NCBI RefSeq assembly: GCF_900115555.1
Contig: NZ_FOWX01000003.1
Location: forward strand, 1-64,000
Direction: 5' to 3'
Source of the DNA: Pseudomonas borbori
GTDB lineage: Bacteria > Pseudomonadota > Gammaproteobacteria > Pseudomonadales > Pseudomonadaceae
DNA: 64,000 nt
Below the pieces are notes generated by a model that saw only the letters and a list, made by a program, of their open reading frames with translations, was not told the DNA's origin and made no database searches. A program made the translations under genes and the position numbers. Positions 1 through 9,600 of this stretch are shown in pieces; the stretch's first letter is position 1; every line of letters starts with the position of its first letter.

Positions 1-345
1 GCAGGACGGCTTTGCCGACCTGAATGAAGCCAGGGGCTGGGTCAGGGACTTCATGCGCTGGTACAACCATGAGCACCGCCATAGCCGTATCCGCTTCGTC
101 TCACCGGCCGAGCGCCATCGCGGCGAGGATCATCAGGTGTTGGCGCGCCGGCATGCGCTGTATCAGCAAGCCCGTGCCCGTCACCCGAGGCGCTGGTCAG
201 GTAACACGCGCAACTGGGAGCCCATCGGGGCCGTCATGCTCAACCCGGAACGGGAGCAATCCGCGCTGGAAGAGGCGGCATAAAAAACACGGTCGACGCG
301 ACAACTACCTTGAAAAACGCCGGTTGTTTCCGCCAGTGCCTGCCG
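1..345 (+). mobile_element. right-hand remnant of an IS3-family insertion sequence
   Basis: The window opens inside an IS3-family element. The 3' part of the transposase gene ends at 283 and is followed by about 60 bases of non-coding sequence resembling the short right end usual in this family. The exact terminal inverted repeat cannot be set because the left end is outside the window, so the right limit is approximate. Confidence 0.5.
2..283 (+). CDS. IS3-family transposase (OrfB), C-terminal fragment cut by the window edge
   Basis: The reading frame is open from base 2 and stops at 281-283. It encodes the end of an rve-type integrase core: the sequence around RWYNHEHRHSRIRFVSPAERH is the classic C-terminal block of IS3-family OrfB, which contains the last acidic catalytic residue's neighbourhood. 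The final part is a basic tail with WSGNTRNWEPIG, typical of one Pseudomonas/Burkholderia subgroup. The DDE catalytic centre is mostly outside the window. An IS next to unknown accessory genes fits the interior of an integrated element. Whether the full gene is intact cannot be judged here. Confidence 0.85.
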   Translation, partial: QDGFADLNEARGWVRDFMRWYNHEHRHSRIRFVSPAERHRGEDHQVLARRHALYQQARARHPRRWSGNTRNWEPIGAVMLNPEREQSALEEAA

Positions 346-2760: not shown

Positions 2761-3048
2761 CTAGGACTCGTCCCAATACTCGTCACGGGCGACCAGGCCG
2801 AAATGTAGATCGCCTGATTGGGCGTCACCAAATAACCGACTGATCCGGCGCTCCTGGCGCAGAAAGGCCAGCGCCTTGAAAAAGCAGGACTCACACACCC
2901 TCACTCGATAGCGCTCACCGTCATGCTGAGAGCCATACCCCCAGTGGGCATGCAGCATGCCGAACTGCTCGCCAAAGCCAGGTACTCGTGTACTGCAATC
3001 GCAAACATCGCAACGCACATCCGCCTGGCGTGGATCAGGTTCAGTCAT
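2761..3048 (-). CDS. small cysteine-rich protein, probable zinc-binding fold, 95 aa
   Basis: I chose the ATG at 3048 (MTEPDPRQADV), which overlaps the end of the preceding gene and follows a GAGGA site, over an upstream start 21 bases earlier. Two Cys pairs, CDVC near residue 15 and CESC near residue 50, are spaced as in a zinc ribbon. Between them lies a conserved-looking stretch with GFGEQFGMLHAHWGYGSQHDG. The overlap with the upstream paralogue pair suggests translational coupling. I recall similar Pseudomonas island proteins without function; a nucleic-acid or protein-binding role is only a guess. Confidence 0.6.
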   Translation of the reverse strand: MTEPDPRQADVRCDVCDCSTRVPGFGEQFGMLHAHWGYGSQHDGERYRVRVCESCFFKALAFLRQERRISRLFGDAQSGDLHFGLVARDEYWDES

Positions 3049-3469
3049 TGAAGTCCTCGGAGTGCACAAGCTTCAGCAGCGTTTGAAAATCAATATTCGT
3101 GCGCAATCCATCTCCCAGCAGCACATAACAGCTGTCTACTGCATGAAATAAACACCCCTCTGTGAAATCCAGCAGCAGGCCTGATCGCACCCACTCGCCA
3201 AAATTCAAGAGCCTATTTGTGCGATACAACACGTCGCGGGTGATTAGGACTGCCGGTTGCAAGCCCTCAGCTTGCAAGTGCTTTTGTTCAACGTCAGGTA
3301 TGCCGGTGACATCAGCCCAGAGCCAGTCTTCGACGATGAACCCCATCTCTATGCCAGACTGAATACTGGTATCGAGATGTGCATGTGCTTTAGACCACGA
3401 CAACGCAATGCCCGGCATTGGCACAGCCGTCTCGTACAGTCGTTCGCGGATCAACTCAATTTCACTCAT
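3041..3469 (-). CDS. DUF6957-like protein, second of a tandem pair, 142 aa
   Basis: The start ATG shares one base with the stop codon of the upstream gene (TGATG), indicating translational coupling. The protein shares its layout with the neighbour at 3469-3873: a PGI-x-x-SW block near the N-terminus, a VEDWLWADV block near residue 50, a QPAV-x-IT block, then GEWVRSGLLLDFTEGCLFHAVDSCYVLLGDG. I match this pair from memory to the DUF6957 family, common in Pseudomonas accessory regions and of unknown function. No signal or membrane segment is seen. The family name should be confirmed by a profile search. Confidence 0.65.
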   Translation of the reverse strand: MSEIELIRERLYETAVPMPGIALSWSKAHAHLDTSIQSGIEMGFIVEDWLWADVTGIPDVEQKHLQAEGLQPAVLITRDVLYRTNRLLNFGEWVRSGLLLDFTEGCLFHAVDSCYVLLGDGLRTNIDFQTLLKLVHSEDFND

Positions 3470-3873
3470 CACTGAAGCCCCATTACGGTTGAAAGATCAG
3501 CACGCTTGCGAACACCATCGCCAACCAGGACATAAAGGCTGTTGCGAGTACGGAAAAAGCAGCCCTCGGTGAAGGTCACGAGCGGGCTCGTACGCACCCA
3601 GTCGCCCACATCAAACCGCCGGTTGCTGTCGAACAACACGCTGTGCGAATACATCACCACGGGCTGTTGACCTGCCGCTTGGAGTTGCTCACGCTCCTGA
3701 TCGGTAAGGATCAAATCGATCCAAATCCAATCACGAACAATGCAATATGGCACCCAGCAACTGTGGTCACTCAACAACACCCGGTCACGTGCCTGCTCCC
3801 ACGACATTTCAATGCCTGGTATGACTTCTCCTGGCCCTTGTAACAGGCTGTGGATGTTCTCCAACTCGCTCAT
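3469..3873 (-). CDS. DUF6957-like protein, first of a tandem pair, 134 aa
   Basis: The ATG at 3873 (MSELENIHSLL) lies just after a G-rich GGGGGGAG ribosome-binding site; a possible TTG start 15 bases earlier has no better context. Shared blocks with the following gene are PGIEMSWEQA, VRDWIWIDLI, QPVVMYSH and GDWVRTSPLVTFTEGCFFRTRNSLYVLVGDG. The two copies are clearly homologous but well diverged, so the duplication is old. The gene heads the minus-strand run 3873-1623, and its promoter should lie in the AT-rich gap up to 4116. The function is unknown. Confidence 0.65.
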   Translation of the reverse strand: MSELENIHSLLQGPGEVIPGIEMSWEQARDRVLLSDHSCWVPYCIVRDWIWIDLILTDQEREQLQAAGQQPVVMYSHSVLFDSNRRFDVGDWVRTSPLVTFTEGCFFRTRNSLYVLVGDGVRKRADLSTVMGLQ

Positions 3874-4116
3874 CACTCCCCCCAACAACTTATGTATATC
3901 GACTTGGCCTTGAATTTAAGGTGCAAATTTCCTGTCCTGGATAACCTGTCCCAAGACTGTTTAATGACTGTCCCAACGAAAATACGCACTGACGATTCGC
4001 CAGTAATAGCTAAACTATTGAATGTGCGGTGTATAGTTAATAACCCTACACCACTGACCCAGTGACAGCGCCAGGTTCAATAGGAAGAGAGCCAGGCTCG
4101 CCGTGCAGCGATAATA

Positions 4117-5492: not shown

Positions 5493-6467
5493 CTAGACCT
5501 CAAGCACCTCAGATACCGGTCTACCTTCGACAACAAGAGGAGGGATCCAGCGATAAATGAACTTCCGCTCACCTGAGCGAGGCCCTTTCCAGAAACCATG
5601 CCAGTGCGCCCGTCTTAAGTGAGTTTTGACTGTTCTGCCACTCGCCAGAGACTCTGTACTTCTCAACTTAGCCCCTAACGTATTTCCGACATGGAAAACT
5701 CTTGGTTTTTCTGGCGTGAACAGATAGCTACCCTTCTTACCTTCGCGAAAAAGTGACTCTCTGTATGCTATTTTTGGCATTAGCATTGGGTCAACGTCAG
5801 GCTCCGAAGAGCATAAATACAATACAATTGAGATCAATGACCTCAACTCTTGAAAATTCTGCCGCACTGATTCCTCTGTGACGTTATAATTAGATGATTT
5901 AATTTTTTCATACATAAGAGCCATTGCCTTACGCATCAGTTCTTCAATTGATTTGACGCCAACCTCAATACAGAACGGTAACAATCCTCTGTCGCTATTG
6001 AGAACGAACCATAGATATTGGTTATTACTTGTATAGTCCCAATCAAGACTTGCCCAAAACCCATTAATAGGCGTTCCCGCCCATGGCAACCCCGGTGATT
6101 CAACATAGATACTCCACTCGGGCATCCGTTGAAAAAGCTCTGAAGGTAACTCTTCAGCAATATCGGTTTCTGTTAGAGCAGAGAGCAAACTAGCATCCAA
6201 CCTGTAGATGCCTTTTGAATATCTCCAGGCGCTAATCACCGATAAAAACCCGCCCTCCTCGAAAAAGTCAAAGTCGCTAGACTCCGGACTTGAATTTTGT
6301 CTCCAAACTAAGGCTGCCCATAATGATGAAGGTAGAAAACACCAACTAGGCCAATCGGGCATATCTTTAAGGCCTTTATTCTCAATACAAAACCTTGCCC
6401 ATGAAGACATTGTAGGATAGGTATTCATGACATCTTTAAGGTGCCGCATCGGGCTCACATTACCCAT
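5493..6467 (-). CDS. AcrVA2-family protein (anti-CRISPR AcrVA2 homologue), 324 aa
   Basis: The protein matches AcrVA2 of Moraxella bovoculi as I remember it in length (about 320 aa) and in several blocks: AWRYSKGIYRLD (80-91), then ELFQRMPEWSIYVESP (110-125), INGFWASLDWD (134-144), and above all the C-terminal LRRAHWHGFWKGPR (284-297) with RKFIYRWIPPLVV following. AcrVA2 is known to block type V-A immunity by lowering Cas12a production during its translation. Homologues are widespread on mobile elements, mostly untested, so the activity here is inferred. The ATG at 6467 follows a GGAGGTG site. The gene is divergent from the repressor at 6712 and may share its control region. It sits among island genes with lower GC than the core. 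Confidence 0.8.
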   Translation of the reverse strand: MGNVSPMRHLKDVMNTYPTMSSWARFCIENKGLKDMPDWPSWCFLPSSLWAALVWRQNSSPESSDFDFFEEGGFLSVISAWRYSKGIYRLDASLLSALTETDIAEELPSELFQRMPEWSIYVESPGLPWAGTPINGFWASLDWDYTSNNQYLWFVLNSDRGLLPFCIEVGVKSIEELMRKAMALMYEKIKSSNYNVTEESVRQNFQELRSLISIVLYLCSSEPDVDPMLMPKIAYRESLFREGKKGSYLFTPEKPRVFHVGNTLGAKLRSTESLASGRTVKTHLRRAHWHGFWKGPRSGERKFIYRWIPPLVVEGRPVSEVLEV

Positions 6468-6638
6468 GGCTCACCTCCGAACCCAGCGCGAACGCCAACC
6501 AAGATTGCGCCGCTTCCTTGCCACTCCCCCGCACACGCCAGTGTTCAGCACTCAATCTTCTCATCGCCTTCTACTCCTTATCAGCCATTAAAAAACAGCA
6601 ACTGCTGTTACACGCCAATATCACTAACCTTTTTGCAA

Positions 6639-6683
6639 TTGTCAACAGCATTTATTGACAAGGCTATTATTGATGAGTAGGAT
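6639..6683 (+). promoter_or_regulatory. promoter of the double-HTH repressor with an overlapping inverted-repeat operator
   Basis: TTGACA (6655-6660) and TAGGAT (6678-6683) are separated by 17 bases, a good sigma-70 promoter pointing at the gene starting at 6712. The inverted repeat TTGTCAA-N9-TTGACAA (6639-6661) overlaps the -35 box, so a bound dimer would block it. This is the expected layout for autoregulation by the downstream HTH protein, and it could also act on the divergent AcrVA2-like gene. Confidence 0.6.
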
Positions 6684-6711: not shown

Positions 6712-7764
6712 ATGAAGGCTTTCGACACAAACACCCTTGGCGGACGAATTGCCGCAGCGCGCAGGGCTCGCAAGCTGACCCAAGCCGACCTCGCGAAGCT
6801 GGCAGGGATTAACCAATCGAGCGTTGCACTTCTGGAGAGCGGGTCGTCCAAGACCTCCCACAACGCCGTAGAGCTCGCACAAGCACTTCAGGTATCTGTC
6901 GAGTGGCTTCTCAATGGAGAAGCCTCAACACTCTCTTCCGATGAAAGCGACTCAAAAGCCCATGACGAAAGGGATGAAGGCATCGCACTGACCACGCAAA
7001 AATCGCTGGACAGCTTTGCTGAACGACTCACATTTCTGCGCGAACAGAACCAGCTCACGCAGGCTCAACTGGCTGCCAAATCAGGCCTTTCTCAAGCCAC
7101 TATTGGTAACCTTGAGACGGGACGCAACAAGGGCACCAAGAAGATCCTTGAACTGGCGAAGGCGCTACATATCACCCCTGAGTGGCTGATCCAGGGTGGC
7201 AACCTCTATGAGGCGAAAGGGGCTTTTCTTCGAAAAGACATGGGGGTCTTGTCCCGTGAAGAACATAACTCCCAGGTAATGAGAGACTTTGCCAGCCGCG
7301 CCATAATCATGCCTGAAGTGAAAGATGAGCCTGCTCCCCATACGCATACGCCCTCTCCCACCCCATCACGAATACTGCCCATCATCACTTGGGTTAATGA
7401 AGCACTGAGCACTCCGAACGAAGCCCACCGAAGCCATGAAACCGAAGGCTGGTTCTTGAGTCCCTTTGACCACAGCCCTGAGGCCTTTTGGATGAAGATC
7501 AGTTTCGATGTAATGGAGCCTGCTTACCTTCATAACGACCTGATCCTGGTTGATCCAACAGTCTCCCCCCAAAACAATGACGATGTGGTGATTCGGGACG
7601 CCAGAGGCATCGCTGGTTTTGGCCGTCTGCGCCAGACGCTGAGTGAACTCTACCTTGAGACATTAAACCCGAAGTACCCCGACAGGATGCACCGTCTAGA
7701 TGAGAGCGTGCTGATCGTCGGTACCGTCACCGGCCTAATCAGACAGCGTCGTGCCATGGCTTAG
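6712..7764 (+). CDS. phage-type repressor with two HTH domains and a degenerate S24/LexA-like C-terminal domain, 350 aa
   Basis: Two XRE helix-turn-helix domains occupy residues 10-69 (GRIAAARRARKLTQADLAKL) and 100-162 (FLREQNQLTQAQLAAKSGL), an unusual tandem arrangement. Residues 225-345 form an S24-like fold ending in a DLILVDP strand. The catalytic serine of CI/LexA (normally in a G-D/N-S-M motif) is valine in FDVMEP (V267), and the lysine expected near GFGRLRQ (302-308) is absent. Self-cleavage after SOS induction is therefore not expected. The ATG at 6712 follows a GAGGA site. The gene probably controls its own promoter, the divergent AcrVA2-like gene and perhaps excision functions. A hairpin at its stop codon separates it from xis-int. 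Confidence 0.85.
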   Translation: MKAFDTNTLGGRIAAARRARKLTQADLAKLAGINQSSVALLESGSSKTSHNAVELAQALQVSVEWLLNGEASTLSSDESDSKAHDERDEGIALTTQKSLDSFAERLTFLREQNQLTQAQLAAKSGLSQATIGNLETGRNKGTKKILELAKALHITPEWLIQGGNLYEAKGAFLRKDMGVLSREEHNSQVMRDFASRAIIMPEVKDEPAPHTHTPSPTPSRILPIITWVNEALSTPNEAHRSHETEGWFLSPFDHSPEAFWMKISFDVMEPAYLHNDLILVDPTVSPQNNDDVVIRDARGIAGFGRLRQTLSELYLETLNPKYPDRMHRLDESVLIVGTVTGLIRQRRAMA

Positions 7765-7782
7765 CCGTGGCACCCTTTTTTT
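7751..7782 (+). terminator. rho-independent terminator overlapping the repressor stop codon
   Basis: GTGCCATGGC (7751-7760), a TTA loop and GCCGTGGCAC (7764-7773) form a 10-bp stem with one G-T pair, followed by CCTTTTTTT. The TAG stop codon of the repressor spans the loop and stem base. It should insulate the excisionase and integrase genes from repressor transcription. Confidence 0.8.
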
Positions 7783-7834
7783 GCCCACCACAACAGCAAT
7801 TGCAATTATTATTGGTAAAACCAGAGGAAGAGCA

Positions 7835-8092
7835 ATGACAGCAGCAGCGAAACAATTCACCGACAACGACACCATTCCACCACCAAGCATTAAGCAGCAG
7901 TTCGCCATTGTCCCCGCTAAATGGGTCAGGCAAGAGCTGCTCTTCCCTGTCTTTGGCATCAGCACGGAGGCTGCTCGCAAGTACCGGGGAAGCGGCCAAT
8001 GGCATGAGGGCAAGCATTGGGATCGAGACCCGGCAAATCGCGTCATCTACAACCGCGAAGCCATCGAGAAATGGATGTCAGGAGCACTGTAA
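7835..8092 (+). CDS. excisionase-like small DNA-binding protein, 85 aa
   Basis: The ATG at 7835 follows an AGAGGAAGAG ribosome-binding site. The pattern WVRQELLFPVFGISTEAARKY, then G-x-W-x-EGKHWDRDP-x-NRVIYNREAIEKWM, is that of the small winged-helix excisionases found directly upstream of tyrosine integrases in Pseudomonas and enterobacterial islands. Its stop codon is two bases from the integrase ATG, so the two are translated from one transcript. The probable role is to bias the integrase towards excision at the tRNA-Ser site. Confidence 0.75.
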   Translation: MTAAAKQFTDNDTIPPPSIKQQFAIVPAKWVRQELLFPVFGISTEAARKYRGSGQWHEGKHWDRDPANRVIYNREAIEKWMSGAL

Positions 8093-8094
8093 CC

Positions 8095-9390
8095 ATGAAA
8101 ATGCCCAAAGGTGTTGAGATCCACAACGGCAGAGTCCGCATCGGCTTCACGCTCAACGGCGAACGCTGTCGTGAAGTGATGCGTGACATGCCGGTCAATG
8201 AGAAAACTATCGCCTATGCCAAGAGCGTTCGCGAGCTGGTGGTCGACGAGATTAAGCGTGGCGTCTTTGACTACCAGCGCCGATTCCCTGACTCCGCAAA
8301 GGTGACTCAGGCTGGCGAGACTGATCAGGCGAAAAGTCCTCTTCCTGCACAACCTAAGGTGGCTATAGCAGCCGTTAAATCGTTAGAGCCCGCCTCCCCC
8401 ACCATGACAGTCAAAGAGGGCGTGATGCTCTGGCTACGCGTGGCAAAGAGCGGAACGGCCTCGACGACTTACCTCAACTACAAATGCAAAGCAGGCCATG
8501 TAATTCGTCACCTTGGCGATAGGCCCATCGACAAGGTGACGATTCAAGATCTCAGGTTGTTTCGCAATCATCTAGTGAAGCCTGAGAACGGTAAGAAAGG
8601 GCTTTCGCCGAAGACGGTCAACGACGTGCTAACCATTGCTCGCGGGGTCTGGGCTGACGCAAAAGCAAACGAACTAATTTCGAGCGATCACATGAAGAGC
8701 ATCCACAACCACAAAGTGAAATACAAAAGCCTGGCAGATCCTTTCACCCGTGAAGAGATCAAACGGATTGAGCAGGCAGACCCTCGGCGGCTTCGTGAAG
8801 CCCGTGTGGTGGTCATGAACTGCTGGATGGGCCTCTCACGCTCAGAATTGATGGCACTGGCCCGAGAGGACGTGGATCTCGATAACAAGCTAATCCATGT
8901 ACGCCGCGCCTACGTGGATGGCATCTACCGTATCCCCAAGGAGGAAAAACGTGAGCGCTTTGTTGAGTTGATCAAACCAGCGGCTGCGCTGATGAAACTC
9001 GTCCTAGAAGACACAGCCGCCTGTAAGCCACAGCACATTGATGTCACCCAGCGCGACAACCTTACCAGCGAGCCGGAGCATGTCACCTTTCTGTTCAGGG
9101 ACTGGGCGACGGAAAATGCCTGGCACCCTGACCACCTGGATGAATGGTTCAAGGAGCACTTGGTCAAGTCTAAGGTGAGCCATCGGGGCATCAACCAATG
9201 CCGCCATACTTATGCGAGCCAGGCCCTATCAAGCCACGTCACGCTGGAGTGGTTGGCTAAGCAACTGGGTCACGCCGACACGACTATGATTAAGAAACAC
9301 TATGCAAAGCTGATCCCGGCTGACACCAAACGGATGGGTCACCATGTGTCTGAGCTGATGGGATTTGGGGAGGATTGGGGCGGGGTATAG
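8095..9390 (+). CDS. tyrosine recombinase integrase of the island, 431 aa
   Basis: The N-terminal 60 residues (GVEIHNGRVRIGFTLNGERC) form the arm-DNA-binding domain of the DUF3596 type. A core-binding SAM-like domain follows (about 104-205), then the catalytic domain (218-410). Catalytic features are R370/H371 in NQCRHTYASQ, H393 in QLGHADTT and the tyrosine nucleophile Y403 in KKHYAKL. The first catalytic Arg, normally in GLR-x-SE, reads GLSRSEL (246-252), so the arginine is displaced by one; I recall the same GLS pattern in relatives. The ATG at 8095 is coupled to the excisionase. The gene points at tRNA-Ser(CGA), the likely attachment site. Confidence 0.92.
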   Translation: MKMPKGVEIHNGRVRIGFTLNGERCREVMRDMPVNEKTIAYAKSVRELVVDEIKRGVFDYQRRFPDSAKVTQAGETDQAKSPLPAQPKVAIAAVKSLEPASPTMTVKEGVMLWLRVAKSGTASTTYLNYKCKAGHVIRHLGDRPIDKVTIQDLRLFRNHLVKPENGKKGLSPKTVNDVLTIARGVWADAKANELISSDHMKSIHNHKVKYKSLADPFTREEIKRIEQADPRRLREARVVVMNCWMGLSRSELMALAREDVDLDNKLIHVRRAYVDGIYRIPKEEKRERFVELIKPAAALMKLVLEDTAACKPQHIDVTQRDNLTSEPEHVTFLFRDWATENAWHPDHLDEWFKEHLVKSKVSHRGINQCRHTYASQALSSHVTLEWLAKQLGHADTTMIKKHYAKLIPADTKRMGHHVSELMGFGEDWGGV

Positions 9391-9506: not shown

Positions 9507-9510
9507 AGTA

Positions 9511-9600
9511 TGGCGGGAAGATAGGGATTTGAACCCTAGGTACCATCGCTGATACAACGGATTTCGAATCCGTCCCGTTCGGCCACTCCGGCATCTTCCC
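9511..9600 (-). tRNA. tRNA-Ser(CGA)
   Basis: A 7-bp acceptor stem (GGGAAGA with TCTTCCC), discriminator G and encoded CCA (9511-9513 on the complement) are present. The anticodon loop carries CGA (in GGATTCGAAATCC), and the long variable arm is typical of tRNA-Ser. The 3' end faces the integrase, so this gene is the probable integration target; the gene itself is intact. Confidence 0.95.

Follow-up and report, generated by a model that had tools for sequence, protein, structure and literature searches.

Why would a Pseudomonas island carry a relative of AcrVA2, an inhibitor of Cas12a expression, in a genome where no Cas12a is found, and what might the protein act on instead? According to two papers and a set of meeting notes (PMC13131331, PMC10403363; PMC12908700), AcrVA2 recognises an LSKT peptide in nascent Cas12a and thereby triggers translation-coupled decay of the cas12a mRNA, by a machinery that they describe as unknown; one of the papers presents this as the first documented prokaryotic case of such translation-dependent mRNA degradation (PMC13131331). 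The window, by which we mean the whole stretch of DNA analysed here, is the first 64 kb (64,000 nucleotides) of contig C58 of Pseudomonas borbori, from an assembly of 5.27 Mb in 96 contigs. A first-pass annotation of this stretch had proposed an AcrVA2-family protein on a tRNA-Ser island with no CRISPR in view, acting either as a guard against Cas12a in other hosts or on a different target.

The open reading frame of 324 codons lies exactly where it had been placed, at 5493-6467 on the reverse strand, and its relationship to AcrVA2 is borne out. In a phmmer search of all PDB sequences (E up to 10), the sole match to its product was AcrVA2 (7ci1/7ci2; E 4.8e-22, query residues 76-317). The protein matches phrog_6160 in the PHROGs collection (E 4.1e-56, residues 26-315); Pfam, PADLOC and NCBIfam returned no match at E up to 1, and 72 members of the family likewise found nothing in Pfam at an E cut-off of 0.01. 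We built an AlphaFold2 model from an alignment (A3) of 72 hand-picked family members, two of which (L002 and L029) are identical; it has a mean pLDDT of 89.6 and a pTM of 0.88. When this model was run through Foldseek, the top three rows were AcrVA2 chains (best E 1.9e-18) and the next row, an unrelated protein, had an E of 0.12. VIA-align superposed model residues 2-314 on AcrVA2 chain 7ci1_B with Z 23.5 (270 residues aligned, 3.3 A) and 22-23% identity in the structural alignment; the best unrelated row scored Z 3.3, and apart from AcrVA2 all rows were weak (Z 3.3 or less), though further relatives may exist. The profile search and fold comparison that had been suggested as checks thus gave a significant AcrVA2 match and the AcrVA2 fold, rather than no match or a different fold, and the claim of homology stands: the window protein is homologous to AcrVA2 and shares its fold.

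The AHWHGFWKGPR block that had pointed to AcrVA2 is present at residues 287-297, within a C-terminal region that holds the family signature HxRxxHxH (Table 1). Each of H283, R285, H288 and H290 is conserved in 124 or more of 125 aligned rows, a set biased towards this motif because the genome scan was seeded on it; for W81, P116, G261, G295 and W307 the figure is 122 or more of the 124-125 rows with a letter at that position. The less biased rows tell a similar story: HxRxxHxH is found in all eight viral rows obtained without the C-terminal seed (46 viral rows in total) and in eight of the nine rows taken from tblastn matches, L004 being the exception. It is missing from all four genus relatives found by profile, one of which (L164) is interrupted by a stop; given that another of the four, L165, is a clear family member (family-HMM E 7.9e-41), a protein can belong to the family without the motif. 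HxRxxHxH is therefore typical of the AcrVA2/FinQ superfamily, as we refer to it below, but not universal. The same fold and the mostly shared block make a core activity common to the family likely, and the block itself may be catalytic or contact RNA.

Several distant relatives were noted along the way. The genus relatives L162:6196-7314, L163:5035-6153 and L164:6786-7811 (E 2e-7 to 3e-8, reading frames of 341-372 aa) have THWRKGHFR in place of HxRRxHWH and may link the AcrVA2/FinQ family to a wider one; L163, the one of the three that was scanned, has no Pfam match. L004:3854-4951, from an Acinetobacter plasmid, matches phrog_6160 more weakly (E 2.9e-12), and 207 Acinetobacter plasmid records matched in tblastn, of which a few were inspected.

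How far does this family reach? With tblastn (E up to 1e-3), relatives were found in 761 plasmid records and 97 phage records. A degenerate-pattern scan of 84,980 species genomes yielded 86 relatives, the best 80 of which were kept and make up 78 loci, and the same kind of scan of IMG/VR yielded 55 loci. Within the genus, phrog_6160 matched in 5 of 298 sampled genomes, weakly so (E 1e-11 to 2e-7) apart from the host genome itself. In a tree of 125 proteins, made by a quick method and containing numerous long branches and deep splits of low support, the window protein groups with L017 and L018 (support 100), its counterparts in P. mendocina FFL34 and P. yangonensis MY50. AcrVA2 falls in a separate clade of eight rows (support 100) containing Moraxella, Acinetobacter and Shewanella-phage proteins, and a viral contig row, L140, lies at zero distance from the AcrVA2 row. 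The tree excludes L034, L036, L133 and L134 (internal stop or frameshift), L083 (a short end fragment), rows shorter than 230 aa, the weak genus matches L007-L011 and nine exact duplicates. Among genes up to 5 kb away from 124 family loci, no partner recurred across the family: the most widespread cluster of neighbouring proteins, at 19 loci, includes the window, L017 and L018 integrases, and further clusters cover nine loci or fewer. Together, these data strongly support membership of the window protein in the AcrVA2/FinQ superfamily (phrog_6160), in a clade of its own.

One explanation for such a protein is that it is a working Cas12a inhibitor that shields the island in hosts with type V-A CRISPR systems. 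Homology to AcrVA2, the shared fold and carriage on a mobile element are consistent with this, as is Moraxella lacunata, which holds both a family member and Cas12a. That genome also shows that our Cas12a model works, since the model matches there. Yet the same model, with its built-in controls silent in both searches, found no match in the host's own genome and none in any of 298 sampled genomes of the genus. Among 49 genomes bearing a homolog (an interrupted copy in those of L034 and L036), Cas12a was found in M. lacunata alone, whose family member belongs to the AcrVA2 clade. The window protein sits outside that clade, and every sister island that we found occupies the same tRNA-Ser site in a Pseudomonas species. 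Neither of the two marks of AcrVA2 proper, a place in its clade and Cas12a in the host or its sampled relatives, is thus seen here. We consider this explanation very unlikely, and, among the readings of the locus, a stand-by inhibitor for Cas12a in other hosts is the least parsimonious.

Nor does the family follow CRISPR systems in general. We looked for Cas1 in 24 of the 49 homolog-bearing genomes and found it in 14, so that CRISPR presence neither demands nor rules out the family gene, and we rejected a correlation between the two. Cas1 had no match in the host assembly (controls matched in 9 of 14), and neither Cas1 nor Cas12a was found in the genomes of FFL34 and MY50. The absence of CRISPR remarked on in the first pass therefore extends to matches for Cas1 and Cas12a across the whole assembly (with the Cas12a controls silent). 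Of the two functions then put forward, a guard against Cas12a fares poorly (0 of 298 genomes, 1 of 49, and a position outside the AcrVA2 clade); a different target is favoured, with FinQ as the lead. The AcrVA2 preprint reportedly notes homologs in bacteria that lack Cas12a.

FinQ, the inhibitor of F-plasmid transfer from IncI plasmids, belongs to the same family. It matches AcrVA2 in the PDB (phmmer E 6.3e-13) and phrog_6160 (E 1.7e-39), and in hhalign comparisons it aligns with the AcrVA2 clade (99.7%, E 1.7e-26) and with the window subfamily (99.8%, E 4.7e-30, 304 columns); directly, the window protein and FinQ match by tblastn at E 8e-13. A model of a Pantoea protein 78% identical to FinQ (pLDDT 83.6) superposes on AcrVA2 with Z 19.1 (277 residues aligned, 4.7 A). 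These profile matches and the fold of the FinQ relative show that FinQ and AcrVA2 are homologous. FinQ pairs in the tree with L078, a Pantoea protein (support 100), away from the window clade; the window protein is not in the FinQ clade. FinQ is matched by 549 plasmid records, 514 of them with 90% identity or more; 516 of the 549 are typed as conjugative, and 36 of 40 records listed at even steps carry a finQ annotation. In the record of L003:3728-4819 FinQ is annotated as 259 aa, but the frame is open from an upstream ATG that would give 363 aa and align with the family from its N-terminus; the annotated start is probably wrong. FinQ is reported to terminate transcription of F tra early, at several sites (PMC8744291). 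AcrVA2 and FinQ are thus alike in that each lowers the expression of one target. Among the PMC papers that we searched, none joins FinQ with anti-CRISPR or fertility inhibition with Cas12a.

The setting of the window gene is indeed the tRNA-Ser island that had been proposed, with integrase, excisionase and CI genes alongside the tRNA-Ser(CGA) gene and a 26-bp repeat as its bounds (Table 1). From right to left, the order is an NlpB/BamC-type lipoprotein gene and purC (the chromosome side, by Pfam), tRNA-Ser, integrase, excisionase, CI and the divergent family gene. An alternative, later start of the integrase, at 8071, lines up with its counterparts in the sister islands; the enzyme is 81.5% identical to those of L017 and L018.

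Table 1. Features of the island in the window (coordinates count from the first nucleotide of the window; C56 is another contig of the assembly).
Feature	Position	Strand	Basis or remark
Metallophosphoesterase N-terminal part (about 128 aa) fused in frame to the last ~60 BrxL residues	1623..2192	-	Pfam Metallophos_2; TIGR02653 615-675/675, E 3.6e-19
Two tandem DUF6957 genes, island cargo	3041..3888 (3041-3472, 3469-3888)	-	PF22275, E 2.4e-20 and 3e-40; homologs in L017, L018, L160
AcrVA2/FinQ-family protein, 324 aa	5493..6467	-	phmmer, phrog_6160, AF2 model and structural match
C-terminal block HLRRAHWHGFWKGP (residues 283-296) with the HxRxxHxH signature of the family	5580..5621	-	invariant or nearly so in A3
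Palindrome of 16 bp, AACAGCAACTGCTGTT, a putative operator of CI immediately downstream of the leftward promoter -10	6594..6609	.	sequence
Promoter-like site of the AcrVA2/FinQ-family gene (TTGACA, 17, GATATT)	6617..6645	-	consensus scan, 10/12
Inverted repeat TTGTCAA-N9-TTGACAA between both divergent promoters	6639..6661	.	exact in window and L017, imperfect in L018
Promoter-like site of the CI repressor	6655..6683	+	consensus scan
CI-type repressor, 350 aa, two HTH domains and S24 (LexA-like) peptidase domain	6712..7764	+	HTH_3 6e-25 (two stretches), Peptidase_S24 1.4e-12, phrog_4 2e-52
Putative excisionase (DUF1233)	7751..8092	+	Pfam PF06806 2.6e-6, above its cut-off
Tyrosine integrase	8017..9390	+	Pfam Arm-DNA-bind_2 and Phage_integrase
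Attachment core at tRNA-Ser 3' end, GTTCAAATCCCTATCTTCCCGCCATA	9509..9534	-	second exact copy C56:4130-4155
tRNA-Ser (CGA), integration site	9511..9600	-	ARAGORN, Rfam

The 26-bp core occurs at exactly two places in the assembly when up to two mismatches are allowed, and both copies are exact. The sequence next to the C56 copy aligns with the distal end of the MY50 island at 87% over a stretch of 358 bases, repeat included, which indicates that the island spans C58 to C56 via one or more contig breaks; C56:4130-4155 is its other end. A transposase fragment (rve_3) lies near this end. Also at the distal end, C56:1084-3684 (L168) encodes an 866-aa AAA_13 ATPase (Pfam E 9.8e-20), possibly a defence gene, and the equivalent place in the MY50 island holds a short reading frame with the same N-terminus. 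In the window, the phosphoesterase-BrxL fusion looks like a deletion junction left by a former BREX locus on the island; the homolog in L017 is a longer phosphoesterase without the BrxL tail.

The region between the family gene and CI suggests how the gene could be controlled. We counted 11 promoter-like sites in the scanned region, compared with 4.7 in shuffles, and around the promoter of the family gene the sequences of L017 and L018 resemble that of the window; an RBS-like GGAGGTG precedes the ATG of the gene in all three islands. The pattern AACAGC-N4-GCTGTT occurs once in the 64-kb window, as the 16-bp palindrome, which is presumed to lie at the start of the family gene's transcript. This palindrome recurs at the matching place in four of five islands (the window, L017, L018 and L161) and is absent from the most distant one, L160. 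In L017 and L018, but not in the window, a second copy lies just past the 3' end of CI. This arrangement is consistent with repression of the AcrVA2/FinQ-family gene by CI. A 34-codon frame at 6468-6570 on the reverse strand overlaps the start codon of the family gene and is open in the window, L017 and L018; we rejected it as a leader peptide because most differences between L017 and L018, judged by eye, alter the amino acid and give no sign of coding constraint.

The sister islands in FFL34 (L017) and MY50 (L018), whose hosts have purC proteins 91% identical to that of the window's host, share the integrase-excisionase-CI module and the tRNA-Ser/purC location with the window, and in each of them a family member takes the divergent position. 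The MY50 island is complete: its direct repeats, of the same 26 bases as the window core, lie about 35.1 kb apart and enclose 37 reading frames of at least 90 aa, ten of which were run in PADLOC and nine in Pfam. No conjugation gene was seen among the nine Pfam-searched frames, and the window island is split over contigs. Other MY50 cargo includes a 1644-aa type ISP/IIG restriction-methylation enzyme (L155:3608-8542) and a PDC-S44 candidate defence protein (L156:12320-13090). A search for this CI type in 398 genus genomes (E up to 1e-30) matched three: the host genome, G239 and G279. The purC/BamC-side site is common to the FFL34, MY50 and G279 islands.

Across the five islands with this type of CI, a family member adjoins the repressor in three (window, FFL34 and MY50) but not in G239 or G279. 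In G239 the slot beside CI is taken by another gene, of 322 aa (L161:40-1008, reverse strand), that has no Pfam match and is possibly a functional analogue; no family member was found near CI in G279. The element can therefore do without the gene: in two of the five islands the slot holds no family member. These observations bear on the idea that the window protein regulates transcripts of its own island instead of an outside target, through autoregulation or by timing excision or transfer. Its fixed place beside CI in three of five islands, the shared operator-like sites and the 34-codon frame that overlaps its start codon in these three islands would all fit. The two islands lacking the gene argue against it, as do the missing sign of coding constraint in that frame (by eye) and the reported action of both FinQ and AcrVA2 in trans on other genes. 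We regard action on the island's own transcripts as quite unlikely.

The two sister islands differ in the allele of the gene that they carry. Between FFL34 and MY50, the integrase is 100% and CI 99.7% identical, and the family protein only 77%; dS is 0.003 for the integrase, 0.000 for CI, 0.26 for chromosomal purC and 0.62 for the family gene. The identity breaks at the CI start codon. Near-identical mobility modules thus carry clearly different alleles of the family gene, and the position of the break indicates that the gene was replaced relative to the module, along with the cargo beyond. Because the cargo past the gene differs too, the allele difference may be a mere cargo boundary. The family gene has a dN of 0.144 and a dN/dS of 0.23, which is purifying overall, and we do not claim positive selection; codons 151-210 alone reach 0.89. 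FFL34 also holds a second, partial copy of the family protein, its C-terminal part (L017:11215-11793). In the residues matching window 201-320, compared in 40-residue blocks, this copy is 65-82% identical to the window protein and 45-70% identical to the full copy of its own island.

Taken together, we think it probable, with some reservation, that the window protein is a nascent-peptide-guided mRNA silencer, repressed by CI in the settled island and directed at a target other than Cas12a. The protein would recognise a short peptide as it leaves the ribosome, as reported for AcrVA2, and this recognition would lead to destruction of that one mRNA. The target is probably a gene of a rival mobile element, as the F tra operon is for FinQ, or of a non-CRISPR defence. 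The divergently encoded CI/S24 repressor would hold the family gene off in the settled island; arrival of the island in a new cell, or inactivation of the repressor, would turn the gene on. We infer the silencing activity, the control and timing by CI and the class of target; homology, fold, the conserved motif, the divergent arrangement with its shared palindrome and the differing alleles are observed directly.

At 22-23% identity to AcrVA2, the silencing function could have changed. The fold might have been kept and nascent-peptide silencing lost, leaving a general RNA- or ribosome-binding stress factor or an inhibitor that works by plain binding; indeed, AcrVA2 is reported also to bind Cas12a peptide 618-634 in crystals (PMC13131331). 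Retention of HxRxxHxH, W81, P116, G261, G295 and W307 in at least 122 of 124-125 rows indicates a shared core activity and speaks against such a loss, which we judge unlikely.

Returning to the silencer that we favour, the family proteins probably silence many different rival genes, CRISPR among others. A broader proposal, to which we give an even chance, is that AcrVA2 and FinQ represent two specificities within a broad class of proteins, carried by mobile elements, that eliminate selected mRNAs via the nascent peptide. The reported multiple-site termination of tra by FinQ would then be translation-coupled decay, and the window gene a further specificity, held in an exchangeable, CI-controlled slot and aimed at a non-CRISPR target. 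If FinQ and the window protein share the mechanism of AcrVA2, it would be a general weapon between elements, with matches in 761 plasmid records, and its targets could be searched for. The homology of FinQ and AcrVA2 makes testable both the way in which FinQ silences F tra and what AcrVA2 homologs do in hosts without Cas12a. It also calls for caution: not every AcrVA2 homolog should be named an anti-CRISPR.

Set beside known systems, the window protein resembles AcrVA2 of Moraxella bovoculi (7CI1, 7CI2) in near full-length homology, fold, the C-terminal HxRRxHWH and carriage on a mobile element. Unlike AcrVA2, it belongs to a separate clade at 22-23% identity, and Cas12a was not found in its host or the sampled genus. 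The neighbourhoods differ as well: Moraxella acrVA2 is reported beside acrVA1, acrVA3 and acrIC1 (PMC7913775), whereas the window gene adjoins an integrase/CI module, and no further acr gene was recognised among ten window reading frames scanned, this gene included, with Pfam, PADLOC, NCBIfam and PHROGs. The cluster phrog_6160, which has no assigned function, is also matched by the AcrVA2 of Shewanella phage Y11 and by FinQ, and according to the GTalign-web paper all 273 structural hits of AcrVA2 for which descriptions were retrieved (342 hits in total) were uncharacterised (PMC12230656). The tRNA-Ser islands of FFL34, MY50, G239 and G279 have integrase and CI of the same family as the window island but differ in cargo. 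FinQ, the F-transfer inhibitor of IncI plasmids, resembles the window protein in homology over 304 columns, in the fold of a close relative and in carriage on mobile elements; its gene lies in the transfer region of a conjugative plasmid, whereas the window gene lies on a chromosomal integrative island, and the target of FinQ is F tra.
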